From Cyathus striatus (Eukaryota; Basidiomycota; Agaricomycetes; Agaricales; Nidulariaceae), in the NCBI GenBank assembly GCA_025738555.1, contig JAOVFP010000011.1:372001-436000 (forward strand): a stretch of 64,000 nucleotides of DNA. Reading direction: 5' to 3'. The notes beneath the pieces were generated by a model, which made no database searches, had not been told where the DNA came from, and saw only the letters and a program-made list of their open reading frames with translations. Shown here piece by piece: positions 2,831-59,089 of this stretch; position 1 is the first letter of the stretch; each line of letters begins with the position of its first letter. The position numbers and the translations under genes were made by a program.

Positions 2831-2966
2831 GCAACAGTGATAAAAATATTATATCATTACTAACTCATTTCTTGCGCATTTTACTTATTTATTTCAGTTT
2901 AATGTATTGTTCATTAAGTACATAATAGTAAGATAGCTATTTAACGACTGGAGTAGAAAACAAGTA

Positions 2967-3796
2967 TGGTGCAGAGCGCTTAGTCAGCTCCACTTTTGGA
3001 TAGTGGCGGAATTGGCGGTTGAAAAAAAATGAAATTATCTGGGCATTGATTTATCATTTGAGATATGTATCTACAGCCGTTATACCTCTAATACTATGCC
3101 TGGACCATATAAGTCTCAAAAGATATCCCTTGTGTGAGCTCGAGAGGCAAAAGCCAGGAAGAAATTAGGCCTAAATGAAGACACAGGTACTTCTGTACCA
3201 ACTGTGAGGTTATCTGATCATGGAAGCACATCAAACAACGAATCTGAATCTGATGGTACACACTGGCAGGGCACAATTTATTATGTCCCTTCCAATTCAG
3301 AGGACTCTGGTGGAGAGTGGGAGGAATACGATGACAGCGATGAAGATAATGATGCTGATTCTGATCTGGAGGAACTTGAAGGGGCAGAACTTGTTGAGGG
3401 ACTAAGAATGCAATGGGAACTGGAGCTGGATCTTCAAGAGCTCAAGTGCGAGACACCATATAAATGTGTCTTGGAGAAGAAGTCAGAAAGGGGGTGGAAG
3501 GTGGCTGAAGCTACAATGGTCGTCAGATTCCTGAGACAGTTGCATCGACATTTGATGACTAATATTACCAAATTAAGTAATACATTACTATATATGGTAA
3601 TGATTACATAAGGCGGCGGAATTTGGATCAGACAAAAATCATAACTCCGTCAGTTTTGGGAATTTCGAATTTCGTCTGACCATTTTGTTCCCCTTGCCAA
3701 AAGAATCATTTTTGTCAGAGGAATAAGGAAAAAAAAGGTTTCCCACATCTTAATTTTAGTTATACAAAAGTGGAGGTGACTAAGTGCTCTGCACCA
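2967..3796. mobile_element. Nested ~830-bp DNA transposon with TIRs, non-autonomous
   Basis: Near-perfect terminal inverted repeats of about 33 bp: the left end starts TGGTGCAGAGCGCTTAGTC and the right end reads as its reverse complement with a few mismatches. Both ends are flanked by TA (2965-2966 and 3797-3798), which fits a TA target duplication as in Tc1/mariner-type elements. The interior has only a short degenerate reading frame (3094-3611) and no transposase catalytic core, so it would need help in trans. It sits inside the repeat-array flank of the tyrosine-recombinase retrotransposon and therefore inserted later. Confidence 0.65.
3094..3611 (+). pseudogene. Acidic transposon-encoded protein, degenerate
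   Basis: Read from ATG 3094, the frame starts MPGPYKSQKISLV, meets a TGA at 3133-3135 and then continues in the same frame through a basic stretch (ARKKLGLNE), a strongly acidic middle (EYDDSDEDNDADSDLEEL) and a C-terminal part with TPYKCVLEKKSERGWKVAEA. From memory this resembles acidic N-terminal proteins encoded by TA-type DNA transposons of mushroom-forming fungi, where a similar TPY...W.KAE segment occurs. That likeness is not verified. The last ~25 residues look random, which suggests a frameshift or deletion near 3520. It is enclosed by the TIRs at 2967 and 3796. Confidence 0.4.
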
Positions 3797-3849
3797 TACA
3801 TAAATCATGTAATTAGGCCACTGAAATTAAGCGAGATAATTGGGTAAAC

Positions 3850-3965
3850 AAAATTTGAGTGAAATTTGAGTGACATTTGAGTGACAATTCAAGTGACATT
3901 TGAGTAATGTTCAAGTGACATTCAGGTGATGTTCAGGTGATGTTCAATTGTTGTTCAAGTTACTA
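3850..3965. repeat. Short GAGTGAC-type repeat array C
   Basis: Degenerate tandem units (TTTGAGTGACA, TTCAAGTGACA, TTCAGGTGATG). It lies between the nested TIR element and the first coding sequence of the tyrosine-recombinase retrotransposon, in the same orientation as array D on its far side. Confidence 0.7.
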
Positions 3966-4314
3966 ACTTGCATGAGGCCAATAGATGAACGAGAGCAGTT
4001 GTTGTGGGCCATGAAGTGGTTATGTAATCTTCACGGGCGGCTGGCACCAGCATTTGTACTTGGGTATGTTCGACCCAGTCTCTAATTCAATTCCGTCGCC
4101 TCATTCTCATGTCATAGTAAGGCTAGGCTCTGCATCTACAGCTGACGTCTCCTTATGCAAGGTTCAAGGAAGAAATAGGAACTATGGCTCCACATTCTTT
4201 TTCTCCCCGCACCTGAGTTGTCTGCTAGATCCTTGCTAGCTTGTTCACTGGGTTGTTTCATCTAGAGATTTGCGTTAGCTCTCGCACTCGTACCAGTCTC
4301 TGCTACTTTCCTCT

Positions 4315-16523: not shown

Positions 16524-19474
16524 TCATCCAAAGTATATACACAGATCCTTAGTTGGTATATCACGTTTCGTTCTATTTTTGTATGCCCCCTTGTATGGTA
16601 TCACGGTGGTTACTTCCCCATTAACAACATATATTTGGTATGTATTTCTGAATTCATGGAAGTTAGCCGGGTTGAAGACAATCACACGTTGAGGCATTCT
16701 TGTCGGGTGATTTGGCTGCATGAACTCTGGAGGTATTTCATGAATGACCTCCTCGCCAATAACCCGCACCCGGAAACATTTTTTGTCTCTTACTAACCCT
16801 TCGAAGTGACACTCCGCATTTTCTAGGCATCCGTTTTCGAAACCAAGGCTTGTATCAGTCGGCTGCGTACCTGAAATTATGACATTTAATAATTTCCCTT
16901 TGAAGACGGCGCCATCGGCATCGATCATACGCTTTATCCAATGTTCTGCATATAATGCAATAAATCAATATTTCATGCAAAAGTAATGATACTACGCATA
17001 CGTACCATCAAATGCAGTTGGTTGTTGAGCAGAGCCTTCACCGACGACAGCCGTCCGCATCGAGGCAGGGAGAGTCGCAGAGGGTTGCAGGGGGAACGAC
17101 GATACTGTATTCTCTGGAACTACATATATTTTAGTTATAAATGATACAATTGGGTGAGAAACGAACTGCGGTGAGCGAAAGCAAATAATTCAGCAGACGT
17201 GTCAGAGGACACTGAAGCAACCTGAGGGGTCATTGAGCTTGGATTCCAAGCGGGTGTTTGAGACCCAATCCCAGAATCATGTTCCCAGCGTGGTGTCGAA
17301 CAAATGCCCAGTGCAGGTTCGGTGTCCTTTCCAGTAGTTTCAGCTGTAAAAAAATCATTCATAGACTTATCGCTGTATCTGTAATATTGTTAGTTATTTA
17401 AAGAGAGTTATATTATACTGTACAAATACCCTGGAATATACAGGTCCTTCATAGGACACTCCACAAGATCCTTCAAAAACATTAGGCGTTCTGGAACCTC
17501 AAGTTGCGCAACATTGCTCGCGCTAACGCTCTTCAGGATCCCACGAGTTCCTTTGAGTGGACCACGCCTTACCCAGGCGTATTTCCCATACTGGTACCAA
17601 TATGGATCCACTCGCATCTGGTAGGCCTCAGAACCATAGGAGGTAGCACTATTTACGGGCGAATCACTTTTTCCGTCTGGCCACCGAAAAGTGGTACTTC
17701 ATTGCACTTCGCTACAGTGGTCTAGGTCTGACAAGCGAATTCGCAGGTGATTAGCCTATTTAACTTGTTAGAATAAAACGAATCCGCGTTAGTAAAAATA
17801 CTGACCTCTCCTAATGGAAAGGCGACAAAGGTAATGGTCTCGTCGCCTATCTTTCCGTTACATTCCACGGTTGTTACCATCCCAACTCTTCCTTTGTGCT
17901 CCCCAGATTTAACCCTAACACCATCGCCGACCTTGAAGAACTTCTGAAGAAGTTCCAGGGATTGTGAAAAGACTTGTGTCGGAAATTCCACAAGATTCAG
18001 CGACGCATTTCCATCTTCAATATTCTCTACAAATGCCAAGTAGTCCCTTCCCCCTTCCAGGGTAATCTTTACTTGATCACCTATCTTTATATTTGACGAT
18101 AGTGATGCACGTCGGGAGAGTTCCATGACATGCGCAGGAACCTGCCTACATTTCTCGAAAGATCTTAATTCATCTATTGTCGGCATGGCATCGACCTGGT
18201 AGTAGTCATCAGTATCGAGTTTCCTACCCATGATAAATCCTTCCGTGGTATACTGCGAACCCTGAAAGGTGTATCCTTTGATAACCTTCTTCTCCGCATC
18301 TTCATATTGAACTAAAAGCTCACCTGGGCTTAGCTCTTGGGTGCGGTCGACGTTGAATGAGTCGCAAGGTGGCAGAGGCACAATCTTCGACTTTGAAGAT
18401 CCTGCAGCACGCTTTTTTGAGGCCTTTTTGTAGAGGATTCTAGGCAAGTGAACGACATCAATTCGAAATGAGCGGTCGCAAACATTGGTTACAAATGCGA
18501 GATCATAGCGGTAATTCCCTTTGAGCCGCACCCAAGAATACTGGGTAGGAATGTATGTTGACGATAGTTTTGGGAAAGAATTCCAGCACATAGTAGGCGT
18601 CTGACAAATCCTATTGGAGAAAGCTTGGCTATAGATAGCTGCACACTTTTTAATGTCCTCTAGGTTGTGTCCTTCGACATAAACATGACCTGGAATCATA
18701 GCTGACGTGAATGCGCTGCGAATGTGCTTAGGACCAGCTTGGGTTGTGAGCATATGGACTATTATTTCCTCAGATCCTTCCTACAGAAGGCTAGTAAGAG
18801 CTGGTTTCGTGGGTTTCTTATACAGCCTACTACTGACCTTAACCAGGATGTCAAACATTGGCCAATCTTGAGGTGTTATACCGCTATGAGCGATACTGTG
18901 CTTATGGGTCGAAAACATGGGATCACCATCACACCCCGAATGGCTACCTACGCGCCTTGACTTTTCAACGTATTTGTTGGTCAAATGGTCAATGAAACCA
19001 TGTTCGGCTTCGACGACCTGTGTTAACGACAAACGGGGACAATCAATGTTATTATCTTCGTCATCCGTGAAATCATTAATAAAATCATCTATAGAAGAGG
19101 TATAGTTAGTAATAACAACTATTTCTTAAAGCCCTTACATACCATCTGAATCAATAGGGTCTTCGTCCTCTGAGCCAGAGGCTACTTCAGCTTCTAAATC
19201 TAAAAATGACTTTTGAAGCGAGATGTTAATATAGTTTCATCATGTTAATAGCATAGGGTCTTACCGCCAATCTTGCTCTTTTCGTTTTACTAGGCTGTAT
19301 GGACAGTGCTCAGTATTGTTAATTAATAAATACGTATGTTTTTACCTTCAAATTGCCCTTCGATGGTCCAGGCTGCAAGAGCGATATTTCATCGTCTACG
19401 TCGTTAAACCATTGAATCTGTGACGCATCCTTCAGCGAGCTGTCCTGATTCTGAGCACAGTTATCTTGGGACAT
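16524..19474 (-). CDS. Spt5-like multi-KOW protein
   Basis: Exons 19346-19474, 19265-19294, 19143-19209, 18838-19088 and 17806-18780 splice in phase with ~50-57 nt introns. The N-terminus is acidic (DVDDEISLL, ASGSEDEDPIDSD). Next is an NGN-like segment (GSEEIIVHMLTTQ, HIRSAFTSAMIPGHVYVEG), then KOW-like segments around SWVRLKGNYRYDLAFV, KIGDQVKITLEGG and VGDGVRVKSGEHKGRVG. Further exons below 17800 give another KOW (GKYAWVRRGPLKGTRG), a Ser/Thr/Pro linker with TPAWNPSSMTP like an Spt5 C-terminal repeat, and a terminal domain (EIPPEFMQPNHPTRMPQRV). Spt5 itself is a transcription elongation factor; this is a divergent paralogue, and multi-copy Spt5-like genes are, as I recall, common in Agaricomycetes. 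Exon joins below 17800 are unresolved, so some decay is possible. Confidence 0.65.
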
Positions 19475-19799: not shown

Positions 19800-20293
19800 A
19801 TCAAGAGCTGGATGTGTTGAGAGCTGGCGGTGTAAGCGTTGTTATCATGGAAGAGTTGTGTTGGGAGTTGGTTGTGTTAAGAGCTGGCTGTGTAAACGCC
19901 ATTACGGAAGAATGGAGCACCTCAACCCATCCTCCAATCGTGTTGGTTAACAATAGTGCTTGAAGTCCTTGGAAAAACAGAACAGCGACTACTATTACAA
20001 TTACCTGTGTATAGGTAAGTGATTTCGATTTCGGAATCGCAACGACATCCTTTTCAGAAGGATCTTTAGATGTAACAGTGTTCTTGTGGGATATGAGATG
20101 GACGGGATATATAAGATCGAGATAGATCCGTCATCGCTACCAACAATCACAAGAGAACCATCCAGTGCGCAAGCAAGTTGCATGGGGAAATTGCGGGAAA
20201 TTGGGTGATCGTAGGTTTTGAGTGGTTTAGAAGGCGGGAGCGAGTATGTGTCGACGCCATTGAATAGATTCGAAACATGGATCTCCTTCTTGC
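19800..20293 (-). pseudogene. 3' part of WD40 gene, downstream of the chromovirus insertion
   Basis: From 20293 downward the minus strand continues exon 7 of the WD40 gene whose 5' part lies at 29186-30102: KKEIHVSNLFNGVDTYSLPP, then a WD-like strand LVIVGSDDGSISILYI. The transposon-borne relatives have the matching RTLLVSNLQDGVDIYAILP and LVVVSSDDGVVRVYDQ. About 70 bp later the protein-like reading shifts frame and runs into a hydrophobic stretch (VIVIVVAVLFFQGLQALL) like the C-terminal membrane segment of the relatives, then a repeat with ALNT/SQHNSS motifs (imperfect repeats, 19797-19915). The shift may be a small indel or a missed intron. The gene is cut from its promoter by the chromovirus. 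Confidence 0.65.
20289..20293. repeat. Target-site duplication CTTGC (left)
   Basis: CTTGC directly abuts the left LTR and recurs at 29181-29185 after the right LTR: a perfect 5-bp duplication. Removing the element plus one copy restores an open exon in the WD40 gene. Confidence 0.95.
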
Positions 20294-20969
20294 TGTCACG
20301 TCCCATTCCAACTACTAAGGGTTGAACCACGAAGAAGGGTCTAACGATGAGAGAGCACGTAAGTAAATGGCTCGGGGGTAATGAACGAAGTACGGGAGTA
20401 ATGGAACGTTGGCTTCAACTTATATGTTGCGCCCCTTGAACTTCTCGTTCCGTATTTAGAAGAAGGCGGAGCTGATGCTGATAACTCGGAGTTGGAACAA
20501 GTCCCAAGCGAAGGAAAGGGTATTAACGTAGTTGATTCGAAACTGTAGTCTACTTACAATATAGAGTAGTTTATATAGTATTTACTTTGTCCCGGATGCG
20601 GAGGGAGTTAGTGTCTATGGGTTTGTGGCATACTGAGGGATAAGTAACTCCAGAGAATGTAGACTACAGTAGACTAGTTTCACGCCTCTAGATTACAGTC
20701 AACGTATAACGCCGATAGTTACGGTGATGACGAGGAACGGGGTAAAACTAATGGGGACGGGAGTTATAGAATGAACTAGAAAGAATGGAAGGGCATAGAA
20801 CGAATAGTAGTAATAAAGGGAAGGGACAAGTAAACAATGACAAGTAAACATTAAGTAAGTAAGAGTTCCTTTTATAACAAACGTATACAGTCCGGAGGAA
20901 ACGTACAATCCTCGGATGAAAACATAACAGACTTGCGTCGGTCCTATGGGCTTTGTCACGGATATGACA
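20294..20969 (-). repeat. 3' LTR of the chromovirus
   Basis: 676 bp, starting TGTCATATCC and ending GGGACGTGACA in element orientation. Nearly identical to 28506-29180. It is followed on the plus strand by the opposite-strand Zn-cluster gene, so its sequence could also contribute to that gene's promoter. Confidence 0.95.
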
Positions 20970-20983: not shown

Positions 20984-21065
20984 AGGCCGAGCCTCGAGGC
21001 CTTGAGATCGGATAAGAATAGTTTAAACTTTGCACGTGCCTCGGCACTAAATCCTAGAGCCGAAA

Positions 21066-21072
21066 TATAAAG
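21066..21072 (+). promoter_or_regulatory. TATA-like box of the antisense accessory gene
   Basis: TATAAAG lies 68 bp before the ATG at 21140, between the 3' LTR and the gene, with no intervening ATG. This supports an own internal promoter reading against gag-pol. Confidence 0.5.
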
Positions 21073-21139
21073 GCGGAGAAATCAGCGAGTGTTCAAAACA
21101 TAAAATCGCAACCCATCAACTCCACTTCGCTTAGTAAGC

Positions 21140-22928
21140 ATGCCTCCCTTCTACGTCGCTGTTCCCGTTCTCCCAGAAAACCTATCTCCGGAGGAACTTA
21201 AGGAAAAACTTTGGGAGAGTTACCAAGCACGTCTTCGTGATCAGACTCCAGCGACAGCGTTGGGACAAAGCGAGGGAATTACTGAGACGATTGGAAAGGA
21301 ACAGGGGGAGAAAACTGAGGACGAGAGCGACGACGAGGATGATGAGAAGGAGGAAAGTGACGAGGTCATGGTGAAGAAGGAGTATGGTGGTGAGGAAGAG
21401 TTGGAGGGTTCTGATGAGGAGGGGGAAGAGGATGAAGATGACGACGATGGAGAAAGTACCCGTAGCAAGAGCAACAACGCCGATGATCCCGACGATCTGC
21501 CCATCCTGCCTAACGAAGAGGATAACGCCGGACAGGATATGGATGTGGAGGGAACTTTGGCTGAGAGCCAAACGTTGAGGACTCAAGACATGGATGTCGA
21601 CCCTCCAGCTCAGGAGGAAACGGGCGAGAGTATTTTGGACCGGGTGCGCAATATTTATCTCCAGCGCACAAGGGAAGCTCCTGAGACTACAGCCCAGCGC
21701 GATGCTCACTTTGCCCAAGCGAGGGCAGAGTATGAGGGTGTAGTCACAAGGTTTGGAGTCGAACGTTTTCGCCAGCAGGATCTAGCAGTAGCCTTACAAC
21801 TTCACAGAGAACAGGACGAGGCCATCTTTAGTATCCCGGTGAAGCCATCGCGTCCGGTGTTGGCTGTGGTTCATGACGCGGCGGTGGTGATGGGAGTCTC
21901 GGAGGTAAGTAGGGTTCTGCCGGAGCAAAACTCAAAAATAACTTCTACTCAAAAGGTAGGAGATCACTTTCACCATTTTGGCCGGGCTGTTCAACGTTTG
22001 AACCAGGACATCGAGGAGCGTAGTCGTACTGATACGCCTGTGATCGAGATGGGAGAGGCAGAGGGTGGAGGCGAACCGGAACAAACGAACGTCGAACCGG
22101 AAGAAGTGGCAAGTAACCAGTCTTCGCCTGCCAGGCCGCCTCTCAAGCGTCCACGTACCGGAACTGGCCCCAAAAGGGCTAGTAGGCCTCGAGTCAGTGG
22201 TCGAGCACGTGGTCGTGGCCGAGCTGCCACTCGAAGTTCAAGGGCGACCAGCAAGGCCACTATTGAAGATTCTGACGAAGAGGCAGACGGGGAAAATGTT
22301 AGAAATGACGATAACGCCGAACACGAAGATGATGGTGAAGCGTCGAAGGGGAATACAGTCGGGGAAGATGAGTCTGAGCCGGAGCAAGTAAGAGGCAAGG
22401 GTAAGGCGAAGGGAAAAGGTAAAGGCAATGAAAAGCCTAGGATACCGCCTTGTTATCTTGAGCCGGTGGATCGATGCCCAGAGTGCGAGAAGAGGGGCTT
22501 ATCGCCTTGTATAGTCAACGTCAAGTAAGTCTCTTTTTGTTTTACCTAACTCCAGAACTAATGGTCTTCATAGCGGCAAAATCACCAAGGGAGTCCGGGC
22601 CTGCGATTATTGCAGGGTACACAAGGCCAAGTGCTTTGAAGAGCCTCTTACCCGTGGCCGTGTATGGCCAGTAGAGGAAGGACCCAATGGCTCTGGGAGC
22701 TCGTCTGGGGGATCTTTTCCTCCTGACGCTCTTGAAGCCATCCGGAACTTGGTGGAAACGAACAAGGTCAACTCGGAGTTAGTGAGAGAGAATTCGGCGT
22801 TGATGAGGCAAGCCATGGGTGTATGGGAATCGATTGCAGAGAGGTTGGGAACATTGCTGAGTGCAATGCCTGGGGCTGATACTTCGGTGGAGATTGATGA
22901 ATCCGGAAGTGAAGAAGAGGAAGAGTGA
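21140..22928 (+). CDS. Antisense accessory gene of the chromovirus: Zn-cluster-like nuclear protein
   Basis: Two exons, 21140-22524 and 22574-22928, split by a 49-nt GTAAGT...CATAG intron, encode about 579 residues with no stop. In order: an N-terminal segment (FYVAVPVLPENLSPEEL), a long acidic region (~55-150), a helical middle, an Arg/Gly-rich basic segment (KRPRTGTGPKRASRPR), more acidic residues, and a Gly/Lys tract. Then six cysteines are spaced C-X2-C-X7-C-X14-C-X2-C-X6-C (CPEC, SPC, ACDYC, KAKC), close to the fungal Zn2Cys6 DNA-binding cluster. A coiled-coil-like helix (VNSELVRENSALMRQAMG) and a Glu-rich tail follow. The intron splits the zinc motif, so splicing is needed to make it. 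It is transcribed against gag-pol and converges with the pol end 125 bp away. A role in regulating the element or host silencing is inference. A captured host gene is also possible. Confidence 0.8.
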
Positions 22929-23053: not shown

Positions 23054-26000
23054 CTATGGTGTGTCTGGGTTGGGCTTATCAGGGTATTTAGAATGGAACT
23101 CCTCGATAAGTTCAACAGCGTGCTCTAGCTCTGTGGCAGCTAACCAAGTTAACTCTTCATCGGTGCCTTCATATCCAGACCAGCGGACCAGATAACGAAG
23201 TTTACATTTGCACCGACGATCTAACTTGGAGTCACAAATTTCACTGACTTCGTACTCGATGTCGCCATCAAGTTCCACTGGAGGCGGCGGAGATATTTCT
23301 CGTTCAGGGAAAGGATTTTCTGTGGCTGGCTCAAGCATAGAGACGTGGAAGACAGGATGTACTGAACGAAAGTTCGTGGGGAGGCGTAAGGTACGAGAGT
23401 GGGATCCAGTCTCGGCAATAATCTCGTATAGACCATAATACTTCTCAGCAAACTTTTTTGCGGGACGAGTAGTTTTAAAGAACTTAGCGCGGACAAAAGC
23501 CTTTGTTCCAACCTTGAACTCCGGAGCTGGCAACCGACGGTTGTCTGCTCCAACTTGATAACGCTTTTGAGCAAGTGCTATTTCAGTTTTGAGGAGCTCG
23601 TGAAGTTCTTGGAGGTCAATGGCAAATTCCCGTGCTTTAGCTGCAGTAACGTCTCGTTCCGGATGAACTGTTATTGCTGGATGATAACCCTTGTTGGCGA
23701 AGAAGGGGGTTGTATTAGTGATCGAGCTCGGTGTATTATTATACGTGAACTCAGCGAGAGGGAGTAGAACGGCCCAATTATCTTGCTGATAATTGCAGTA
23801 TATTCGAACATACTGTTCTAATACTTGGTTGATCCGTTCTGTTTGTCCATCGCCCTCTGGGTGGTAACCAGAGGTAAAGTGTAACTTCATGTCAAGCACT
23901 TTGCCTAATGAACGAAAGAAGTGAGAGATGAATTCTGAGCCTCTGTCAGAAGTAACATGTCCTGGAACACCATGTTTAGAAAAAACGTGCAAGACAAAGA
24001 GTTGAGCGAGTTGAGCGGAGGTGATGGTGTTATAACAGGGAATGAATATTGCCTGCTTGCTGAAACGATCTACAACGACCAGTACGGAGTTATACTCTTC
24101 TGAACCGGATTTAGGCAGCGTCTCGATGAAATCCATGGATATTGAACTCCAAGGGCGAGCCGGAATTGGAAGTTGTTTCAATGTGCCATAGGGTCGATGT
24201 CTTTGGGGTTTAGATCGCATGCAAGTTGTACAGGACTTACAATAATCCTTGATATAAGTACGTAGTCCAGGCCAAGTATATTCACGCCTAATGATGGACA
24301 GGGTCTTGTTTTGACCGGGGTGTCCAGCGAGGATGTGATCGTGCTTGTACTGAAGAACGCGAAGGCGAAGGGAATTGTCATTGGGAACATAGATACGTTC
24401 GTCGAGACGGAGTAATTTGTCCGTTCCGACTGACCAACGACCAGTGGGATCTCGGAGATGAATAGCAGCAATGGTGTCAGTAGGTTGAGCGATCAAGATA
24501 TCATGATGAAGTTGCTCAACGTCCATAACCATGCTAGCTCCGAGGATGGGTAGAAAGAGAATAGTAGCTCGCAATGAAGTAGTAAGTTGTTCTTGAGTGA
24601 AAACTGGCCTAAAGTTATGCGGATTGACTTTGGCATAGTCGTTATCCCCCTCTTTAGGATAGACGTCCCAGCGTCTAGTTAATGCGTCTGGTTTAGCTCC
24701 GAGTTTCCCCGGACGAAAACGAATAACTAAATTGAATTGAGAAAGAGACTCTGACCAACGAGCTTGACGGCAAGTAAGAATTTTGGTGGTAGAAAAGTAT
24801 TCGAGGTTCTTGTGATCTGTGACCACGTCGATTGGAATACCTGAACCCTCCAAGTAATGCCGCCATACTTTAAAAGCTTCGAAGATAGCTAGGAGTTCTT
24901 TGTCATGGGTGTCGTAATTTAACTCCGGGGCAGTGAAGGTCCTGGAGTGGAATGCTATAGGGTGGATATCGCCATCGTCAGCGATGATAGAGAGAATAGC
25001 TCCTAGTGCATAGTCTGAAGCATCGGTCTCTACTATAATCTGCGCATCTGGCACCCAGTGTGTAAGCACTGGAGCAGTACTGAAAGCATCTTTCAGATGT
25101 TTGAACGCCGCACGGCATGCGGGGGTAAAATCCCACTTCAAACCCTTTCGGGTAAGACGTGTTAACGAAACGACAATATCCGAATAATCCCGGATGAAAC
25201 GTCGATAGAAATTGGCGAAGCCAAGGAAAGACTGAACGTCTTTCACTTTTCTAGGCTCAGGCCAATCCTGAATCGTTTGGACTTTGTCCTTAGACATTGT
25301 GAGGCCGTACGGAGAAAGAACGTAACCGAGGTACTCAACAGATTCTGTGTGGAATTCACACTTATCCGCCCGGGCATAAAGACCATGCTTTCGTAATCGA
25401 CGCAAGACTTCTTTAACGTGTCGACGGTGTTCCTCGATGTTATTTGAGTAGATAAGGATGTCATCGAGGTAAACTATTACGCACACGTCAAGTAAATCTT
25501 TGAAGATATCGTTCATAAAACGTTGAAAAGCTGCCGGCGCGTTGGTAAGTCCAAATGGCATTACTAGCCATTCAAAAGAGCCATAACGAGTGCGAAAGGC
25601 AGTCTTCCATTCATCTCCGTCAGTAATACGGACAAGATGGTAAGCGTGGCGAAGGTCGATTTTAGAATAAATTCGAGCCTTGCGAGGGCTATCAAGGAGG
25701 TCGGCAATGAGAGGGAGAGGGTACCTGTCCTTCTTGGAGATGGCATTAAGTCCACGAAAATCGACACAAAGCCGAAGTGAACCATCCTTCTTCCGGACGA
25801 AAAGCACTGGTGCCCCGTGCGGAGAACGTGAAGGACGTATAAAGCCAATGCGAAGATGTTCGTCTATGAACTGTCGCAGTGATCCAAGCTCGGATTGAGA
25901 AAGAGAGTACACCGTACCAACTGGAGGGGCAGTGCCCTCATCCAGGTTGATTTTGAGATCGTAAGGACAGTGTGGAGCAAGTGTATCTGCTCGGGTTTTG

Positions 26001-26896
26001 CTGAAGACGTCAGCAAACTCGTGGTATTCCGAGGGAACATTAGAAAGGTCAATGGTCTCTGTGGTCATAGCAGCAGCAGCAGACGCAGAGACTACAGCAC
26101 CGAGATGTATCCTGAAGGTTTGAGACCCTTCAAGTTTGCTAGCTCTAAGAAACGCGGCAGCGTTGATCATAGAGATGCTCGGAGGTGGAAGTGAATCCGA
26201 CGGAGGAAATGATGGCTCATCTGGTGAAGTATGTGGCAACGAAGGAATATCCTTCGGAACAGGGGTCGATGGGAGCGGAGTAGATTCTTCTGTAGCAGTG
26301 GTTTGGAAGCGAAGTATGCGTCTCTGTACCCAGTCAATCAACGGATTGTATTGGGTGAGCCAGTTAAATCCTAGAACCACGGAGCAAGAAGAATCAAGCG
26401 GAGTCACATATAGTGCAAGGGAAATACATTCACCAGATGGAAACGTTACAGGTAAATTTATACACTCTGTAAGCATAGAATTTGTGGTGCCGTCAAACAG
26501 TCGTAATGCTATCGGGGTTATTGGAGTGGTAGGTAGGTGATTTGTCCGAACGAAAAACGAATCAATGAAACAATGAGTAGAACCGGAGTCAATGAGGGCA
26601 GCATAGGTAAGAATAGTGTTCGGTGTTACATGAGATGGAGAGGTGAGCGGTATATGTACAGCCTGGGGATCAGAAAGAGCAGACGCGTTAAGTCTTACCT
26701 CCATATGAGCACAAGGGAGAGGAACGCGGCCCTCGACTTGTGCGGAGTTACAAGGACCGCGCTCTATTTTTTTGAACTCCCTTTCTTGGGGCTCAACGAG
26801 GCAGACGCCTCGGGGGAAATAGCAGCGGCACGGGCTCTTGCAGCTGTGGAGGTAGCCTTGCGGCAATCCTTGGCCATGTGGCCAGGCCTGGCACAA
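23054..26896 (-). CDS. pol: Pol polyprotein: protease, RT, RNase H, integrase, chromodomain
   Basis: One uninterrupted 1280-codon frame. The true start of translation is the -1 shift near 26770, so the first ~43 codons are overlap. Protease has DSG at residues ~103-105; RT has YLDD at ~476-479; RNase H starts at VETDASDYALG (~620). Integrase has the HHCC zinc module (HDHILAGHPGQN...CKSCTTC, ~850-885) and DDE residues in SMDFIETLP, TSDRGSEF and the helix GQTERINQVLEQY. The C-terminus (~1213-1271) is a chromodomain (YEVSEICDSK, LRYLVRWSGYEGTDEELTW), which in this clade targets integration to chromatin carrying methylated histone tails. All catalytic residues are visible, so the protein should be functional. 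It ends 125 bp from the convergent accessory gene. Confidence 0.95.
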   Translation of the reverse strand: MCQAWPHGQGLPQGYLHSCKSPCRCYFPRGVCLVEPQEREFKKIERGPCNSAQVEGRVPLPCAHMEVRLNASALSDPQAVHIPLTSPSHVTPNTILTYAALIDSGSTHCFIDSFFVRTNHLPTTPITPIALRLFDGTTNSMLTECINLPVTFPSGECISLALYVTPLDSSCSVVLGFNWLTQYNPLIDWVQRRILRFQTTATEESTPLPSTPVPKDIPSLPHTSPDEPSFPPSDSLPPPSISMINAAAFLRASKLEGSQTFRIHLGAVVSASAAAAMTTETIDLSNVPSEYHEFADVFSKTRADTLAPHCPYDLKINLDEGTAPPVGTVYSLSQSELGSLRQFIDEHLRIGFIRPSRSPHGAPVLFVRKKDGSLRLCVDFRGLNAISKKDRYPLPLIADLLDSPRKARIYSKIDLRHAYHLVRITDGDEWKTAFRTRYGSFEWLVMPFGLTNAPAAFQRFMNDIFKDLLDVCVIVYLDDILIYSNNIEEHRRHVKEVLRRLRKHGLYARADKCEFHTESVEYLGYVLSPYGLTMSKDKVQTIQDWPEPRKVKDVQSFLGFANFYRRFIRDYSDIVVSLTRLTRKGLKWDFTPACRAAFKHLKDAFSTAPVLTHWVPDAQIIVETDASDYALGAILSIIADDGDIHPIAFHSRTFTAPELNYDTHDKELLAIFEAFKVWRHYLEGSGIPIDVVTDHKNLEYFSTTKILTCRQARWSESLSQFNLVIRFRPGKLGAKPDALTRRWDVYPKEGDNDYAKVNPHNFRPVFTQEQLTTSLRATILFLPILGASMVMDVEQLHHDILIAQPTDTIAAIHLRDPTGRWSVGTDKLLRLDERIYVPNDNSLRLRVLQYKHDHILAGHPGQNKTLSIIRREYTWPGLRTYIKDYCKSCTTCMRSKPQRHRPYGTLKQLPIPARPWSSISMDFIETLPKSGSEEYNSVLVVVDRFSKQAIFIPCYNTITSAQLAQLFVLHVFSKHGVPGHVTSDRGSEFISHFFRSLGKVLDMKLHFTSGYHPEGDGQTERINQVLEQYVRIYCNYQQDNWAVLLPLAEFTYNNTPSSITNTTPFFANKGYHPAITVHPERDVTAAKAREFAIDLQELHELLKTEIALAQKRYQVGADNRRLPAPEFKVGTKAFVRAKFFKTTRPAKKFAEKYYGLYEIIAETGSHSRTLRLPTNFRSVHPVFHVSMLEPATENPFPEREISPPPPVELDGDIEYEVSEICDSKLDRRCKCKLRYLVRWSGYEGTDEELTWLAATELEHAVELIEEFHSKYPDKPNPDTP

Positions 26897-28452
26897 AACA
26901 AGCAGAGCTTGTTATCCAAGCGACGCTTGCGTTCCTCTGGGAGTAACTTGCCATCAGGCCCAAGCTTACCAGTTAGGTCAGGAGCCTGAGAGGCAGGAGG
27001 CCTAGGTTGGCTCCTGTTGGGTCTGTGGGGCGAAGAACCAGAGGAAGTGCTGGGAGGGTTTATCCGAGCAGTACTAGAGGTTGAGGCCGCCGGCCTAGAG
27101 GGAAACGTTCCCCGGCGCTGATTACTAGCAGCCGGAGGAAAGGTCCTCGTAGGCGGAGCAGGAAGCTTATGGCGCCTTTCCTCAATGGAACGCTCAGTGT
27201 AGCGCTCCCAGTGACGCTGATCGAAACCTTGGGCCAAAGCCTTCATGGGTTGAAGGGATTCGGGTCGAGGGATTTCCCTACCCGAGATCTTGTCCTTAAT
27301 GCGTGGACAGAGACCGTAGTAGTATTGCGAGGTGAGGGAAGGATCGTCCCAGTTCAACAAGGTAGCGTACTTGTTGAAATCGATTTCGTCGTGCGAAGTG
27401 ATGCGATGGTGGTTTTCCATCTTCAATGCACGAATCTCTAATTCAGCTTCTACGCGCGGGTTAGTTTGACCGAAATGAGTCCGGAGCAAACTAACGAAAA
27501 AGAGCCAATCGTCCATCCAGCGCTCATAAACGTCCTCGTCGAGGTGCGTACTAAACAACGCCCCTGCAGCTCCCCTGAGGAAAGTCAAAGTATAATCGAC
27601 TTTTGCCTGGTCACTGTTGTAGAGATGGGGGTTGTTTCTAAAATTCAAGCGGCACTGAGTCAAGAAAGCATCTAGCTTGTCGGTGCTAGAGCCATCAAAA
27701 ATATCAGGCGCGTGAACTTTCTTGTCGCGTGGTGAAGGAGGGGGAGGTGGTCGTTCCATGATGCGCTCTGCAATGGTAGTGAGAGCGCCGACCACATCCT
27801 CTCCATCATAACGGCGTCGACGAGAGTGGCGTGAGGATGCGCGAGATGAGCCATGAGATGAGGGAACAGAACCTCCATTTGGGCCAGGTCCTCCAGGAGA
27901 AATTCCTCCAGGGCCTGCAGGATCATTGTGATCCGAGGGAGGTACTTCATCCTCGACATCGCCAAACTGGGAATCATTATCAGAGGGCTCATGATTGGAG
28001 CCGTCATCAGAAGGTTCATAACCATTGCCCCCGTTGCCATTATCTCCTGGTGGTGGTGGCGGCGGAGCGCTCCCAGCACCTGAAGGTATAGGTGCTTTAG
28101 GGGGTGCTAGAACCGGAGTTGTAGCTCGCGGGTCGGAGTCAATGGTGGCATGTGGGACGAGCGTCGGGTCAAAAGGAAATACTAATGGCATAGGTCGGGC
28201 AGTGCTGACGTACTCGAATGCTGGTTGCAGCACACGTTGAGCACGTCCGGCCGAGATGGGAATTCTTGAGACCAATGCACTGGCCGATTCCGGAACAGGA
28301 GAACGAGAGACAGAAAGAGGCCTAGGGACGGCTGGAGTACTAGTGGCAGTAGCAGATTGCTGTGAAGCCAAACGGTTACTGCGTCGGGCTTGCTGTGGAA
28401 CAGTCCGCTGCTGGTGACTGCGTTGGTGTGCAGTTTCAGTACGTGTAGCCAT
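26764..28452 (-). CDS. gag: Gag of the chromovirus
   Basis: A 562-codon frame starting 53 bp inside the 5' LTR. The N-terminus is Pro/Ser/Gly-rich and low in complexity. A capsid-like core follows (DIFDGSSTDKLDAFLTQC, ALFSTHLDEDVYERWMDDW), then a basic linker and one CCHC zinc knuckle (CLFCARPGHMAKDC) near the C-terminus. It ends with SSKK and TAG. It assembles the cytoplasmic particle and packages RNA. The stop lies directly after a seven-A slippery run through which pol is reached. No stop or frameshift breaks it. Confidence 0.93.
   Translation of the reverse strand: MATRTETAHQRSHQQRTVPQQARRSNRLASQQSATATSTPAVPRPLSVSRSPVPESASALVSRIPISAGRAQRVLQPAFEYVSTARPMPLVFPFDPTLVPHATIDSDPRATTPVLAPPKAPIPSGAGSAPPPPPPGDNGNGGNGYEPSDDGSNHEPSDNDSQFGDVEDEVPPSDHNDPAGPGGISPGGPGPNGGSVPSSHGSSRASSRHSRRRRYDGEDVVGALTTIAERIMERPPPPPSPRDKKVHAPDIFDGSSTDKLDAFLTQCRLNFRNNPHLYNSDQAKVDYTLTFLRGAAGALFSTHLDEDVYERWMDDWLFFVSLLRTHFGQTNPRVEAELEIRALKMENHHRITSHDEIDFNKYATLLNWDDPSLTSQYYYGLCPRIKDKISGREIPRPESLQPMKALAQGFDQRHWERYTERSIEERRHKLPAPPTRTFPPAASNQRRGTFPSRPAASTSSTARINPPSTSSGSSPHRPNRSQPRPPASQAPDLTGKLGPDGKLLPEERKRRLDNKLCLFCARPGHMAKDCRKATSTAARARAAAISPEASASLSPKKGSSKK
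26767..26773 (-). promoter_or_regulatory. Programmed -1 frameshift site A AAA AAA
   Basis: In gag phase the minus strand reads TCA AAA AAA TAG, a canonical X XXY YYZ heptamer ending at the stop. A -1 slip continues as AAA ATA GAG CGC, the frame of pol. Seven T's on the plus strand at 26767-26773. Confidence 0.85.
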
Positions 28453-28505
28453 TGGAAGAAAACAAAAACAAGTGGAGAAGATTCAAGGAAGTGAGTTTCG
28501 AATAC

Positions 28506-29180
28506 TGTCACGTCCCGTTCCAACTACTAAGGGTTGAACCACGAAGAAGGGTCTAACGATGAGAGAGCACGTAAGTAAACGGCTCGGGGGTAATGAACGA
28601 AGTACGGGAGTAATGGAACGTTGGCTTCAACTTATATGTTGCGCCCCTTGAACTTCTCGTTCCGTATTTAGAAGAAGGCGGAGCTGATGCTGATAACTCG
28701 GAGTTGGAACAAGTCCCAAGCGAAGGAAAGGGTATTAACGTAGTTGATTCGAAACTGTAGTCTACTTACAATATAGAGTAGTTTATATAGTATTTACTTT
28801 GTCCCGGATGCGGAGGAGTTAGTGTCTATGGGTTTGTGGCATACTGAGGGATAAGTAACTCCAGAGAATGTAGACTACAGTAGACTAGTTTCACGCCTCT
28901 AGATTACAGTCAACGTATAACGCCGATAGTTACGGTGATGACGAGGAACGGGGTAAAACTAATGGGGACGGGAGTTATAGAATGAACTAGAAAGAATGGA
29001 AGGGCATAGAACGAATAGTAGTAATAAAGGGAAGGGACAAGTAAACAATGACAAGTAAACATTAAGTAAGTAAGAGTTCCTTTTATAACAAACGTATACA
29101 GTCCGGAGGAAACGTACAATCCTCGGATGAAAACATAACAGACTTGCGTCGGTCCTATGGGCTTTGTCACGGATATGACA
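28506..29180 (-). repeat. 5' LTR of the chromovirus
   Basis: 675 bp, the same sequence as the 3' LTR except for two CpG/TpG-type substitutions and one base in a G-run. The primer-binding region right after it (GTATTCGAAACTCACTTCC in element orientation) does not start with TGG, so a full tRNA 3' end is not the obvious primer. A self-priming or tRNA-fragment mechanism is possible. Confidence 0.95.
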
Positions 29181-29185
29181 CTTGC
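29181..29185. repeat. Target-site duplication CTTGC (right)
   Basis: Second copy of the 5-bp duplication flanking the chromovirus. Confidence 0.95.
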
Positions 29186-34490: not shown

Positions 34491-35570
34491 ATGCCCCGTC
34501 CAAAGAAGGAGAAGAAACTATCGATCTGCTATTGCAAGAAATGCAATGGGGTCACGATGACCGAATTGGACTTTATTGCGCATGTGAGTGAAAATAAGGC
34601 TGAAGACGATCTTCGGGGCATTGAAGATTGAGTGTTTTCACTTACTCTTGCTGAAGCTGGCCCATGTTCTCCCCAGGACATACCTCTGCCTTCGATTCCC
34701 CAACCTTCTCCCTATGAGATAGATGCGCAACTGACATTCCAGCACTTATTGGAGTGCAACAATAGTCTAACGCTTTGTCATGACAGTATTCGTGCAGTCT
34801 TTCGAGAATGGCTTGAAAACGGAACATGGAATCCAGCTATGCAAGACGAAGCCACCAGATTTCCCATTAGGAGTCAGGCTCATGCTTATCTCTTGAGCCA
34901 AGAGTCCTGGCTGCTAGATCTTATAGCTCGGGTTCGTCTTGTCCCGACTTCTGGAGACGGTGCAAACGAATTGTTCAAAAGTTCAGTGCATACGGGCGCG
35001 GACTCGCTACTAGCGGATATTCAAAAGCACGTAGAACGCTGGAGTAATTTGGCCTTTCCCTACGGGAAATCCTATGACACTGGTAAGTAGCTTAGTACTG
35101 GGGATAGTGCGATAAATAACTCATTACAGATGTTCACTTTGAACATCCCTCATGCCCCAGCCATCCAGCTCTGGCAGTTTGCCTTTTCCTTACGGTTGCC
35201 GTTAGTGTTTTTGCGAATGCTGCACGCCCTACTTGCAACTTCATCCTCCGAATGGCCAAGCTTCTGCTGGGTGCTGCTACCTCGACTGATCATACACTGC
35301 TCCTGGGATCAATACCGGACAACCTGCAGACAGCGAGGAAAATGTTCGATTTGGACCCCAAAACGACAACCTACGCCACCTGCCCATCTTGTGCTTCAAT
35401 TTATCCCCCGGGTGTAAAGGATGCCTACCCGCTTCGCTGTACGTTCAAATGCTTTGCTAATGCATGATGCAGATGGGAAAGTTTTTGTTGATTCTAATGA
35501 GGAACTACGTACACTCTGGAGCATCAGCTATGATGCCTTCAATCCGTATCACAACAAAGCCGCAGGAAAG
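34491..35570 (+). pseudogene. Tnp2-like transposase, 5' fragment (left copy)
   Basis: Exon 34491-34583 encodes MPRPKKEKKLSICYCKKC and splices (GTGAGT...CCCCAG) to 34677, giving DIPLPSIPQPSPYEID, LECNNSLTLCHDSIRAVF and LSQESWLLDLIARV. A further intron (GTAAGT) leads to DVHFEHPSCPSHPAL and a zinc-binding-like block (YATCPSCASIYPPG...YPLRC). At about 35466 some 215 bp present in the other copy are missing. The frame then ends at GNPYHNKAAGK-like sequence at 35570, where sequence jumps to the F-box gene. The catalytic part is therefore gone. The family's product cuts and pastes the element by a DDE-type reaction. Confidence 0.7.
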
Positions 35571-35860
35571 TCATACAAGCTGACTAGTACTCTGTAGCAT
35601 CTAGAGTGTGTCGATATATGTTCTAGGAGATGAATCACAGCCGGATTGACGTCTCCTGTTAAGGCTATCATGGCGCGTCCAATGCAATCAGTTTGTAATA
35701 TATGTTGCATTCTAAGAAAGACCTCCGACGCTGCATAGCGCAGGTAACGATTGGTGTGGAGTAGCTGCAAGATGTTGCCCTCATCAACCTGAGTAATTAT
35801 CAGGTCTACTAGTTCCGCTGGAAGCTTTAGGATTGGGAAGGAGTCCTGCTGAGCCTTCAT
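35571..35860 (-). pseudogene. F-box-like gene, N-terminal remnant (left copy)
   Basis: From ATG 35860 the minus strand reads MKAQQDSFPILKLPAELVD and LLHTNRYLRYAASEVF, an F-box-like start identical in layout to the complete gene at 58315-59079. It stops about 90 codons in, at the junction of the 2.65-kb deletion. Confidence 0.7.
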
Positions 35861-35917
35861 GCATTGGTTTTTGATGGTTGCCTATGTTCAATTTCAATTC
35901 TATTCAGTAACAATATT

Positions 35918-36182
35918 TCATAAGTACCATTTAGTTAAACGTACCAGTTTACGCTGCTTTCTAATTCCTTCGTATTCTGGCAAAAGATTATCGATTTCTT
36001 GGGAACCACGTTTACATGTGGTGCTAGTTGCTCTGAGGCTCTTAGCAAAAGCCCGTGTAAATACACGTGCAACCGACGTCAATTCCTACATATTAAAAGC
36101 TTAGAACATAATTCCAGTCAAGAAAATTGTTAATGCTCACCAAGTTGCAGCCTAGAGAGATGACATTTCTGAGATTGGCCAT
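35918..36182 (-). CDS. 69-residue two-exon protein (left copy)
   Basis: Exons 36141-36182 and 35918-36085 join in phase 0 (donor GTGAGC, acceptor ATGTAG) to give MANLRNVISLGCNL followed by ELTSVARVFTRAFAKSLRAT and a basic C-terminus. It is open in this copy, while the counterpart at 57993-58256 has a TGA in place of CGA. Family unknown; it may be part of a longer gene with the F-box exon downstream. Confidence 0.4.
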
Positions 36183-36766
36183 CGCCGTAAAAGTTGATAG
36201 TGAAGTTAAACTGAAGTTGATATATGTAGCGATTATACTGACCTTAAACGAGTCTCGTTTTATAGAGCCTGAGTACCTGTCTTGAACAGGCATAAAATCT
36301 ACAATAACCTGAATCCCGTCTGTAATTTACAACAAGCTGAAATCTCTTACTCAGTCGATATTTTTTCATGTATGTTCAATTCGGAGGTATATTGGTCTGG
36401 TTATTCTTCGTCGGATTTTGAAAATGATGCAGAAAATGGTGGCGTTCGGAGACGGAATGGAATGCCTGTCAAATGCTCCACTGCAATTGTGTTATACCTG
36501 ATCACACTGGTGTGCGTAGTAGGATGGTAGCAACGGAACAAAAGTCTTTGTACAATAAGCTGTTAGGCAAGTTCCTTTCTTTTATTTGTATGACGCTTCC
36601 AACTCCACTAGACTAACAAAATTATGAATACTATGGTGTGGGTAAGCTTTCGCCGAGCGGGGAATGAGCGGGGATATGAGGAAACTAGTCGGCGAAACAA
36701 TAACACAGAGAATACATCAACGCTGTACTCATATCCGACACCAGCTCTATCAGATCACCTTCCAAC
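36183..36766. other. Intergenic region between divergent cargo genes (left copy)
   Basis: Sits between the leftward small gene and the rightward WD40 gene, so it likely holds both promoters. An 82-codon plus-strand frame (36282-36530) with a hydrophobic end (AIVLYLITLVCVVGW) is also open in the right copy (57645-57893, minus), but since the DNA is ~95% identical this is weak evidence for a gene. Confidence 0.35.
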
Positions 36767-38007
36767 ATGAAGCCAGCTACTCTTACTGCACATACTTTGG
36801 TATTTTTGGGTTAACTATTGCTAATTGCATTTTTTCAGTTTGACTTAAAATATATGCTCAACCAACATTTGAGAGTGATCAATGCCTTAAAGATAAACCA
36901 GGATGGCTCTAAACTTGCAAGCAGTGGTGAGCGGCAAGTTCTCTGAAATATTTATACGCATGTTTAAAATATACTGTTAGGTGATGATGGACTTATGGTA
37001 GTATGGGAGTTAATGACAGGCGAAAAGCTTTGGGAAGCGTCCGTCATTGGTGTAGTTACAACCGTTTGCTGGGCACATTTCGCAGAAACAGGTTCCACGA
37101 TACTATATTTCGGAACAGGTAGCGGTGTAATCTGAGGATATCAGGAAAGTAGAACCGGAGATGGTTATGAGCATGTGTTGGTGATATCTGTGCATGATGG
37201 CCCTTTGGAAGACCTGAAATTTGATCCGTCTCATAGTCGCCTCGCCTTGCTTGGGGCAGGCTCTCTCAAAGTGTGGAACTTGGTTTTCCCAGGTATGTTA
37301 TTTGTCCTCTAGGTTTCATATTGCGCTCACTGAATCTCTCTTAGGTCAAGCTTCTCTGTACGTAGAGTCTACCCCTCGCCCCCACACAGCTAGGAGTGTC
37401 ATGTTTACGCAGAATGGTGCGGAATTAATTCTCTGCTATTTGGAATCTCGTGAGATGTAAGCCCCACCATCATGCTTTTATCCTTGAAGTTTTTACATGT
37501 GGTTGTAGCTTTTGCTATCAGCTGACTCCTTGGAAAATGCAATGGTTTCATGAGATCCATACCAGAATGTCAGTCTCTCTCTTGCCTTATAGTTAACTGC
37601 TCCACCTGATATGTTGTTACAGTGGACATGCCATCATTGGCGCAGATAATCGTACTCTACTAGTCTCTAATCTTCAAGATGGCGTTGACATATATGCCAT
37701 TCTGCCTGTACAGCCACTTAGGTCGTTAAAGCATGCTATCCGCTCAAATGTGCCCCTTGTCGTCTCATCTGCCCTGCAAGGTGAACTGGTAGTTGTCAGT
37801 AGTGATGATGGTGTAGTACGTGTATATGATCAACACTTGGGAACCTTGGTTGCACTACTACCCCATGGCTATGGTAAGTAATTAATGTTATACACATGAG
37901 AACGAAGAAATCTAAATACTTTGCTAGTTGAAACACTAGTACAAATAACCAAGGTTTGCAAAGTTTCTAAATACTAGCAATGTTAATGCTAACTATATAA
38001 TAGGTAT
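36767..38007 (+). pseudogene. WD40-membrane protein cargo gene, 5' part (left copy)
   Basis: Exons 36767-36799, 36839-36926, 36981-37292, 37345-37456, 37509-37568, 37623-37873 and a short exon near 37926 (VETLVQITK) splice in phase. WD-type strands include SGDDGLMVVWELMTGEKLW, RLALLGAGSLKVWNL and VSSDDGVVRVYDQ. Exons 2 and 4 (88 and 112 nt) have the same lengths and phases as exons in the split gene at 29186-30102. A TGA at 37133-37135 interrupts exon 3 and is shared with the right copy. The Ty3 element begins at 38008, four bases into the next exon. Confidence 0.7.
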
Positions 38008-39159
38008 TGATACGCATGTAAATAGAAACAACGTACCTAATTTTAAAATTCTTTAAATCTCGATTTCGAGATTCCAGTACGAAACGGCGTTGAGTGAGGA
38101 AACAGCGGGGAGGGGCTGAGTTCCCGCGCTGCCTCCCATAATTAAACAAGGGATAACCTATTAAAAAACACATAACTCCGCGTTAGTACTGGTTTAAAAC
38201 ACTTTAAACAAATAGCTACATAAACACTTTACCTTTAAAAATATGACGTTGCATTCTATACATGAGTACCCAAGCCCAGAACAAACAATAAGACTATTAA
38301 ACAAAAGTCAGCACGCGATAACAAGTGTGGAGATAGACAAAACACGGACTTACTAAATCCCTGAGACCCTGAATCCCTGAGACGACGAGACAAGCGAGAC
38401 AGAGAGAGAGAGAGCGCGAGAAAGGGGGAAAGGAAGCAAGAAAGGAAAGAGAACGAGTACCCCAACAGTCAGGAGTTCACGCAGGAACGGAAAACCGACC
38501 CGTTAGACCGATGTAAATGAAATTGATGCGAGCAGCTGCCGCTGCCGCATCGGCTGATTACCCGATTAGGAAGGTAACTGATGGGACGCTCAAACGAGCG
38601 CGCGTTGCAGAACTCAAACGAGCGCGCGTTGCAGAAAGGGAGCGCGCTGCGCTATGTGCACGATTGGCTGACCGCCGCCTGGGCGCTGACAACGCGTTAC
38701 CTTAAACATGGACCGGGGAAATGTCCGGAAAATATATCACATTGTATTACTGCGCGATTTGTAATTAAGTAGCTAGAAAATGTATATAGATGAGCGAGGA
38801 GGGAATGAAACGGTAGGAACTGCCAGGCATTCTTCCCTCCCACGGATAGGGCGGTTCAGACGAGATACAGAATAGAATCAGAATTGTTACGAGACGAATT
38901 GATACCGAGAAATACGTACCGTGATATTGAATTATCTCTGAAATTGAATATCTTTACTCTGAATACTTTGACCCGTGAACGAGAATAGCCCGAGTTTAAC
39001 TTGTACTATTTTTAACTTGATCTAAATTTGGACTTGAACACAATTGCGCCCCTCGAACTTACTGACTTCGCACCTCGGGATTTAAAAGTTGATTATTATA
39101 TTTGGGATTTACATTCTAAGTATTTAATAAACTAACTACTCTCGTCACGTGACTCAACA
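38008..39159 (+). repeat. 5' LTR of the second Ty3 element
   Basis: 1152 bp, TGATACGC...GACTCAACA. Contains a 24-bp tandem duplication (AACTCAAACGAGCGCGCGTT-type) absent from the 3' LTR. Confidence 0.9.
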
Positions 39160-48354: not shown

Positions 48355-48564
48355 TGTATTAGTGCGTTCAACATATGTATTATTTCCTTCTTGACTGATT
48401 AGCGCTTGCTGATTCCGACATCTATTGTCTTGCTATGCTACATCAACACCTTTCAGTAGAGATATTGTTTTTGTATGATTTGTATGCATTTCCTTACCCG
48501 TAACTAACTTTTTATTGTTTCGTAGGTATAAGTACATGATGCATTGGCATGGGGAAGACTCAAA

Positions 48565-58256: not shown

Positions 58257-58314
58257 AAATATTGTTACTGAATAGAATTGAAATTGAACATAGGCAACCA
58301 TCAAAAACCAATGC

Positions 58315-59079: not shown

Positions 59080-59089
59080 GCTAATGTAC

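Follow-up and report, generated by a model that had tools for sequence, protein, structure and literature searches.

An intron-bearing antisense gene with a Zn2Cys6-like cluster in Ty3 chromovirus lineages of Cyathus striatus

Background

Accessory genes antisense to gag-pol, at the position analysed here, are already known in LTR retrotransposons from the aORF-3R of plants and from brtn of Botrytis. The brtn gene of Boty was reportedly described by Zhao et al. in 2011. It is likened to the present gene through citing papers (PMC8365987, PMC4227169 and PMC5987419, each available in part) as an antisense extra gene of Boty-like elements of Botrytis cinerea, which are fungal LTR elements having a chromodomain in gag-pol. 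The plant aORF-3R, namely gene23 of Grande and those of RIRE2, Retand (ORF4/TRP28) and PvRetro13, occupy the same place and strand as the gene of the window and, like it, have numerous copies and extend over several related families (PMC7264820, PMC11963269, available portions). A nuclear or DNA-binding role has been proposed for them, and an own promoter has been reported for Grande (same portions of PMC7264820 and PMC11963269). Unlike the gene described here, no zinc cluster is named for them in these portions. The Retand study of 2025 dealt with antisense TRP28 ORFs of a predicted DNA-binding kind and mentioned HBZ of HTLV for comparison; its main text contains neither the word 'intron' nor the word 'zinc' (PMC11963269).

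HBZ / APH of HTLV are antisense, spliced, nuclear regulators, and the likeness is one of mode only (PMC10186651, available part). HBZ, which combines an activation domain with a bZIP, reduces the expression of the 5' LTR (PMC10186651, same part). The viral proteins differ from the present one in having a bZIP, or none, in place of a zinc cluster, and both hosts and sequence are unrelated. They are expressed from the 3' LTR, while the gene described here would apparently be expressed from a TATA box that lies just inward of the 3' LTR. The typical targets of Zn2Cys6 proteins are CGG triplets in pairs, whose orientation may be inverted, direct or everted, and a coiled coil that follows the cluster serves for dimerisation (PMC5559640; site types also in PMC10370356; available parts of both). 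The gene described here has in common with Gal4-type factors of this kind a six-cysteine cluster, basic residues, downstream helices and CGG-type candidate sites, and differs from them in the intron in the linker and in having no Pfam Zn_clus match above the cut-off.

The literature listings searched, which covered few subscription papers, showed no antisense gene of basidiomycete elements with a zinc cluster or an intron; the available parts of PMC2864245 and PMC5408684 hold nothing on antisense zinc genes. The first-pass annotation had regarded the gene as the best candidate for an undescribed system in the window. This does not hold for antisense accessory genes as such, known in plants and in Boty of Botrytis. 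The combination of a conserved intron, a zinc cluster and LTR arrays looks like the novel part.

The antisense gene and its element

The window is the whole stretch of 64,000 nucleotides that was analysed, and the coordinates of the features are given in Table 1. The element is a young Ty3 chromovirus, recognised by its LTRs, gag and a pol with the order RT, RNase H and integrase followed by a chromodomain. Both gag and pol are open; the gag domain scores were under the Pfam cut-offs. The first-pass annotation had placed in this intact element, between pol and the 3' LTR and on the strand opposite to gag-pol, a two-exon frame with its own TATA-like box, and all of this was confirmed in position and length. 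The exons joined after removal of the 49 nt encode 579 aa. Exon 1 comprises an acidic N-terminal part, a central part common to family B, a basic part and the first half of the cluster. The gene ends before pol begins, without overlap (22928 versus 23054), so that the codon signals discussed below belong to the antisense gene alone. Similar TATA-like boxes were present in other lineages: TATATA at -82 to -86 in the four family B copies examined and ATATAA at -92 in the family C copy L049. No such box was seen within the 91 nt examined upstream of the family C copy L060. An in-frame second intron at 21905-21955 was considered and is disfavoured, as the A and B proteins align across that stretch without a gap.

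Table 1. Coordinates of the antisense gene, its element and the candidate LTR sites in the window
Feature	Position	Strand	Remark
Target-site duplication CTTGC, left	20289..20293	.	5 bp
3' LTR	20294..20969	-	676 bp; 99.6% identity to 28506-29180; ends TGTCA...TGACA
CGGAG site in 3' LTR	20467..20471	+	20 nt before next site
CGGAG site in 3' LTR	20487..20491	+	
CGGAG site in 3' LTR	20599..20603	+	
CGGAG site in 3' LTR	20893..20897	+	CGGAT 20 nt on at 20913
TATA-like box (ATATAA) of antisense gene	21065..21070	+	-75 from ATG
Antisense gene, exon 1	21140..22524	+	open from ATG 21140
First half of zinc cluster, C446-C457	22475..22510	+	in exon 1
Intron, GT-AG, 49 nt, phase 2	22525..22573	+	donor GTAAGT at 22525, acceptor CATAG ending 22573; between Cys 3 and Cys 4
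Antisense gene, exon 2, stop included	22574..22928	+	second cluster half, helical stretch, acidic tail
Second half of zinc cluster, C472-C482 (CDYCRVHKAKC)	22602..22634	+	in exon 2
pol (protease, RT, RNase H, integrase, chromodomain)	23054..26911	-	open
gag, stop to stop (capsid-like region, CCHC knuckle)	26764..28482	-	open; -1 to pol
5' LTR	28506..29180	-	675 bp; 99.6% identity to 3' LTR
Target-site duplication CTTGC, right	29181..29185	.	5 bp

The neighbourhood of the element was also inspected. The adjoining stretch 16524-19450 on the minus strand has broken-up or intron-rich reading frames and may be an SPT5-like gene or its relic. SPT5-like matches were located at 17725-18753 (KOW1_SPT5 clears its cut-off with E 4e-5, KOW and NGN fall short of theirs), unlike 16527-16928, where none was obtained. 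Long duplicated blocks, mostly inverted and of 92-97% identity, connect 34672-39094 and 47048-50010 with 54242-62357, and a tandem-repeat array with many self-matches lies at 62626-63755.

Copies and lineages in the source genome

The copy searches covered the source genome of 107 Mb. An antisense gene of this type is common to three element lineages of this genome, termed A (the window), B and C. The DNA search gave seven places of the lineage A gene (window, C18, C21, C19, C8, C1 and C13) and one short match. Three of the seven are partial or in pieces, the gene lacking its 5' part on C8, being split by an insertion on C1 and lying in two pieces on C13. The copy at G000 C1:5744478-5752052 (L032, L008) is split at about 22247-22250 of the window by an insertion of about 5.8 kb.

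The lineage B gene has at least 73 loci, condensed by hand from 99 rows, of which two entries on C23 (668395 and 673504) are possibly one split gene. In the first two B copies pol is 76% identical to that of the window at the DNA level, and the gene has the same place and strand, its protein being 28-29% identical to that of the window. The B gene was on the strand opposite to pol in all 62 loci where a pol 3' end was listed within 2.5 kb downstream; the other 11 loci have no pol end among the matches listed. Lineage C (L049, L060) has at least 53 loci with a shorter gene, 357 aa in L060. Its 37 listed pol ends, counted with about a dozen partial C places left out, comprise 17 with the gene, opposite in strand in 17 of 17, and 20 in gene-degenerate places of the L050 type. 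Profile comparison joined A and B with an E value of 3e-11 over 245 columns; the A-C and B-C matches covered the cluster region only (E 8e-6; L057 omitted from the family C profile). Comparison of the copies thus demonstrates, at the level of sequence, the antisense position, the residence in an element and the homology between A and B.

The pairing of gene and pol may be set beside the prevalence of the plant genes. The gene accompanied 62 of 81 B-type pol ends (19 unpaired), 17 of 37 C pol ends and none of 18 of the sister type of A, among the matches listed or fetched; for B, pol rows judged to be sister, A or C were left out and the gene loci were those condensed by hand. The pol search scored 38 of 408 candidates and returned at least six places of the window type and at least 30 of the sister type at 88-92% identity. 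In the 18 fetched out of the 30 listed sister copies, no 3' flank matched 21024-22852, and 14 of the 18 retain a match starting at 22853, which is inside the end of the gene. Since the flanks retain this stretch, the sister elements would descend from a gene-bearing form that lost the gene. The second gene-less group is the L050-type subgroup of C, with at least 40 matches that are complete or almost so, at 95-100% DNA identity, L050 itself included; decay of the gene was read directly in L048 and L050, and the other members were assigned by DNA identity. Both derivative groups, the sister elements (L009-L024, L027, L028) and the L050 type, are thus at high copy number, and some gene-less sister elements have an open pol. 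The gene is therefore dispensable in cis, as two derivative groups lost it and yet amplified. Two other Ty3 families, which are related to each other, contained no antisense frame of 80 codons between the pol end and the end of similarity (about 600 nt).

A free host gene as the source of the matches was considered and rejected. The tblastn search with the window protein gave 23 rows, 15 of them A copies, and six of the other eight overlap or adjoin listed B loci. Of the remaining two, C1:7638301 is opposite in strand to a B-type pol end listed about 1.6 kb away, whereas C22:606364 is weak and unplaced. Beyond the gene of the B copy L026, a further pol-like stretch with 27% identity to the window pol was noticed at 2921-4105.

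Outside this genome, no match was obtained in the protein database for the A/B alignment or for residues 80-380 of L025, while relatives of pol were found there at 78-80% identity over the searched part, Leucocoprinus and Agaricus included. This negative says little, because the antisense gene evolves fast, as seen from the A-B identity given above. Viral contigs, solved structures (searched with the C protein) and Rfam gave no match either. The TRP28 domain PF04195 was absent at E up to 1 from the window A protein, L025, L046 (cut short) and L060.

Intron and six-cysteine cluster

The intron is in phase 2 and lies between cysteines 3 and 4 in all copies read (7 A, 12 B and 11 C), so that the claim of the first-pass annotation that it splits the zinc motif extends to all three lineages. 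Its length is 48-49 nt in A, 46-48 nt in B and 51 nt in C. The exon indels of A are +3, +6 and -3, except for two single-base deletions in exon 1 of the C18 copy; the remaining single-base indel in A (copies C19 and C13) falls within the intron. The B introns of 46 and 47 nt break the frame unless they are removed, and the 48-nt B introns checked (L025, L038, L045) hold a stop in the unspliced frame. With frame-keeping exon indels in A and frame-breaking or stop-holding introns in B, the intron is more than a guess, and comparison among the copies shows that it would be removed from the antisense transcript. Its survival through retrotransposition, also foreseen in the first-pass annotation, is explained by the copying of the element via RNA of the other strand. 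The position of this spliceosomal intron within an element gene is conserved from lineage to lineage, an arrangement that works only on the antisense strand.

The six cysteines of the window protein (C446, C449, C457, C472, C475, C482) have the spacing C-x2-C-x7-C-x14-C-x2-C-x6-C, for which the term 'near-Zn2Cys6' used in the first-pass annotation is fair. A seventh cysteine just upstream, C438, is not invariant in the A/B alignment. The six were kept in 7 of 7 A, 11 of 12 B (L039 lacks one) and 11 of 11 C copies. The Zn2Cys6 pattern is C-x2-C-x6-C-x5..12-C-x2-C-x6..8-C. The C cluster fits it with a linker of 9, B has a linker of 13, and A departs in both x7 and a linker of 14. In the antisense protein the K/R-rich half of the cluster comes second, unlike Gal4. 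The Pfam zinc-cluster score of the B copy L025 was 13.6 bits against a cut-off of 21, and there was no such match for the window A protein, the C copy L060 or the B copy L046 (cut short). The protein was not placed in the Zn2Cys6 family, since the Pfam cut-off was not reached and the A spacing departs from the pattern. No other fungal transcription-factor domain appeared in the Pfam scans of window, L025, L046 and L060. The structure model of the B protein has two long helices downstream of the cluster, a block with pLDDT 72-86 in a model that is poor as a whole (mean pLDDT 49).

The N-terminal part of the B protein looks mosaic between copies (L025, L038, L039, L041-L046), with alternative starts and blocks in differing combinations and a similar exon 2. 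It looks as if this part had been assembled by template switching.

Selection on codons

The Nei-Gojobori dN/dS ratios were compared with simulations preserving the CpG transitions, other transitions and transversions of each pair. The simulated neutral ratio for B and C was 0.6-0.7 and not 1, and hence the simulated value is the proper yardstick. For B, the median ratio was 0.30 in exon 1 against a neutral mean of 0.68, with every one of the 55 pairs lower than all 40 simulations, and 0.20 in exon 2 against 0.62 (61 of 66 pairs). For C the medians were 0.34 against 0.63 in exon 1 (23 of 45 pairs below all 40 simulations) and 0.27 against 0.64 in exon 2 (35 of 45); the pairs share ancestry and are hence not independent. 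The shifted and reverse frames gave 0.63-1.57. The B counts left out exon 1 of L047 (broken frame) and the upstream part of exon 1 of L043; L039, being without the ATG, was counted from the matching codon, and exon 2 of L040 ends at its last alignable part. In the C counts L049 was left out for its frameshift, and exon 2 of L056 and L057 ends where the frame breaks.

For lineage A, in which the C1 and C13 copies were each used as two pieces, the exon 1 pairs ranged from 0.27 to 0.54. Pairing the window with C19, with C8 and with the larger piece of C13 gave 0.34, 0.35 and 0.32, with null means of 0.49-0.53 and null first percentiles of 0.34, 0.31 and 0.35, so that C8 is not below its own. The smaller C13 piece gave 0.51 against a null of 0.64. 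In exon 2, the ratio was 0.17 for window and C19 (first percentile 0.23), 0.45 for window and C8 (null mean 0.57) and 1.25 for C19 and C13. About half of the exon 1 differences of the window from C19, C8 or C13 are CpG transitions, which suggests methylation-driven decay.

These comparisons demonstrate purifying selection at the codon level that is strong in B, fair in C and modest in A. Stops were present in several older copies: in B, they affect 3 of 11 sequences of exon 1 and 1 of 12 of exon 2, and in C, 5 of 10 of exon 1 and 7 of 10 of exon 2. This may be read to mean that selection acts while the elements transpose and that inserted copies decay afterwards. A chance ORF was ruled out by the copies, the indel pattern and dN/dS. 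Three outcomes had been named beforehand as telling against the gene, namely its lack in other copies, homologues only as free host genes, and dN/dS near 1 with frequent stops; none occurred, though several old copies carry stops. From codons and copies together, the antisense gene is very probably a real gene of the element under selection.

LTR site arrays

The 5-mers of the LTRs were ranked against dinucleotide shuffles with no motif picked beforehand. The top 5-mer of the B LTR was CGGAG (11 versus 1.7 expected, family-wise p below 0.001). It was also the top 5-mer in the LTR of the gene-less sister L014 (8 versus 0.8, family-wise p below 0.001), and ACTCC and AGTAA likewise pass the family-wise test in the sister LTR. 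In the sister LTR, as in B, the CGGAG sites share a single strand. The four CGGAG of the window LTR are on one strand, a count reached by 1 of 300 shuffles in the one-strand test; in the two-strand 5-mer test CGGAG was outside the top 5-mers, and the enrichment is weak. The 12 B LTRs (two partial) had no CTCCG and 0 to 11 CGGAG, fewer in the more diverged copies. The B spacings under 60 nt were 21, 32, 20, 32, 21 and 21, none of them more than one base away from a multiple of 10.5 (probability 0.0001 if spacings were random), a regularity noticed post hoc. The sister and B LTRs are 0.745 identical versus 0.738 when shuffled, and when the two are aligned, six of nine sites of the sister coincide with B sites, an overlap that the motif itself may help to drive.

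In the C LTR the enriched motif was CGGGT/ACCCG (12 versus 2.4 expected, p 0.001), and GGAAC passes as well. It forms three close inverted pairs, two with N3 (CCG-N3-CGG, for example ACCCG-AAG-CGGGT) and one with N1. The LTRs of gene-less derivatives (L009 and L014; L048) retain the motif enrichment of their lineage. The two Ty3 families without the gene, taken as controls, showed enrichment of neither motif from pol end to LTR end (CGGAG 0 and 1, CGGGT 0 and 0), these stretches being lower in G+C, with CCCCC and AAAGG as top 5-mers that pass the family-wise test. Conservation across 12 B copies was not higher at CGGAG sites (0.894) than in the whole LTR (0.910), and slightly higher than at other 5-mers starting with CG (0.841).

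Proposed function

The above is best read as a Zn2Cys6-like transcription factor that the element encodes and that would act on LTRs in trans, a reading favoured somewhat over its negation. The motif of the protein and the patterns of the sites lend a similar, slight preponderance to the binding of LTRs by it. The first-pass annotation had suggested a nuclear, DNA-binding protein that could control its own LTR, and this interpretation is partly supported overall: the LTR arrays speak for such control, and the B site conservation is not above the level of the LTR. The antisense gene would probably be transcribed from the candidate promoter just inside the 3' LTR. The transcript, spliced once, would be translated into a protein that combines a Zn2Cys6-like cluster with a helical and probably dimerising stretch and acidic regions. 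The protein may then go back to the nucleus and bind the CGG-type sites in LTRs, which would hold the gag-pol promoter as well as the region upstream of the antisense gene itself. The gene-less derivatives could live off the protein of gene-bearing relatives. An activator is more likely than a repressor judging from site retention, because the gene-less derivatives keep their site arrays and elements that had escaped a repressor would be expected to lose theirs. The fullest form, a spliced antisense zinc-cluster activator of its own LTRs with lineage-specific site codes (CGGAG arrays on one strand in A/B and palindromes of the form CCG-N3-CGG in C) that serves the gene-less derivatives in trans, is put forward tentatively and is more doubtful than the general reading.

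The retained arrays could instead bind a host zinc-cluster factor, with the antisense protein doing other work or competing with that factor. Fungal hosts commonly have many Zn2Cys6 factors, which speaks for such a binder, as does the higher number of sites in gene-less sister LTRs (8-9 in the two examined) than in the window LTR (4). The explanation is nevertheless rather unlikely: the sites of A/B and C differ together with the cluster of the protein, although in two cases only, and the control families are without this enrichment.

The protein could also serve the integration path by binding cDNA or chromatin and aiding nuclear import or targeting, with the LTR motifs incidental or serving that step. 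The zinc cluster, basic stretches and putative coiled coil would fit any nuclear DNA-bound protein, and the plant counterpart, GENE23 of Grande, is nuclear (PMC7264820, available part). Against this, the gene-less sisters, some with open pol, amplified, as did the L050 type, and the LTR arrays are promoter-like and one-stranded in B; a role in integration is likewise improbable. An effect of the antisense transcript itself, forming dsRNA with gag-pol RNA and leading to silencing, is very improbable in view of the codon-level purifying selection, the mostly frame-keeping indels and the lack of gene overlap with pol, even though a regulatory role of antisense RNA has been discussed for elements of plants (PMC7264820, available part).

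Significance

Annotation based on ORFs readily overlooks intron-bearing antisense genes of this kind. What antisense accessory genes do in LTR retrotransposons is a question to which the present case lends itself, as it offers a candidate DNA-binding motif, candidate LTR targets, three comparable lineages and gene-less relatives as natural controls. If the activator with gene-less dependants is true, it would mirror, among retrotransposons, the way in which viral satellites depend on a transactivator.
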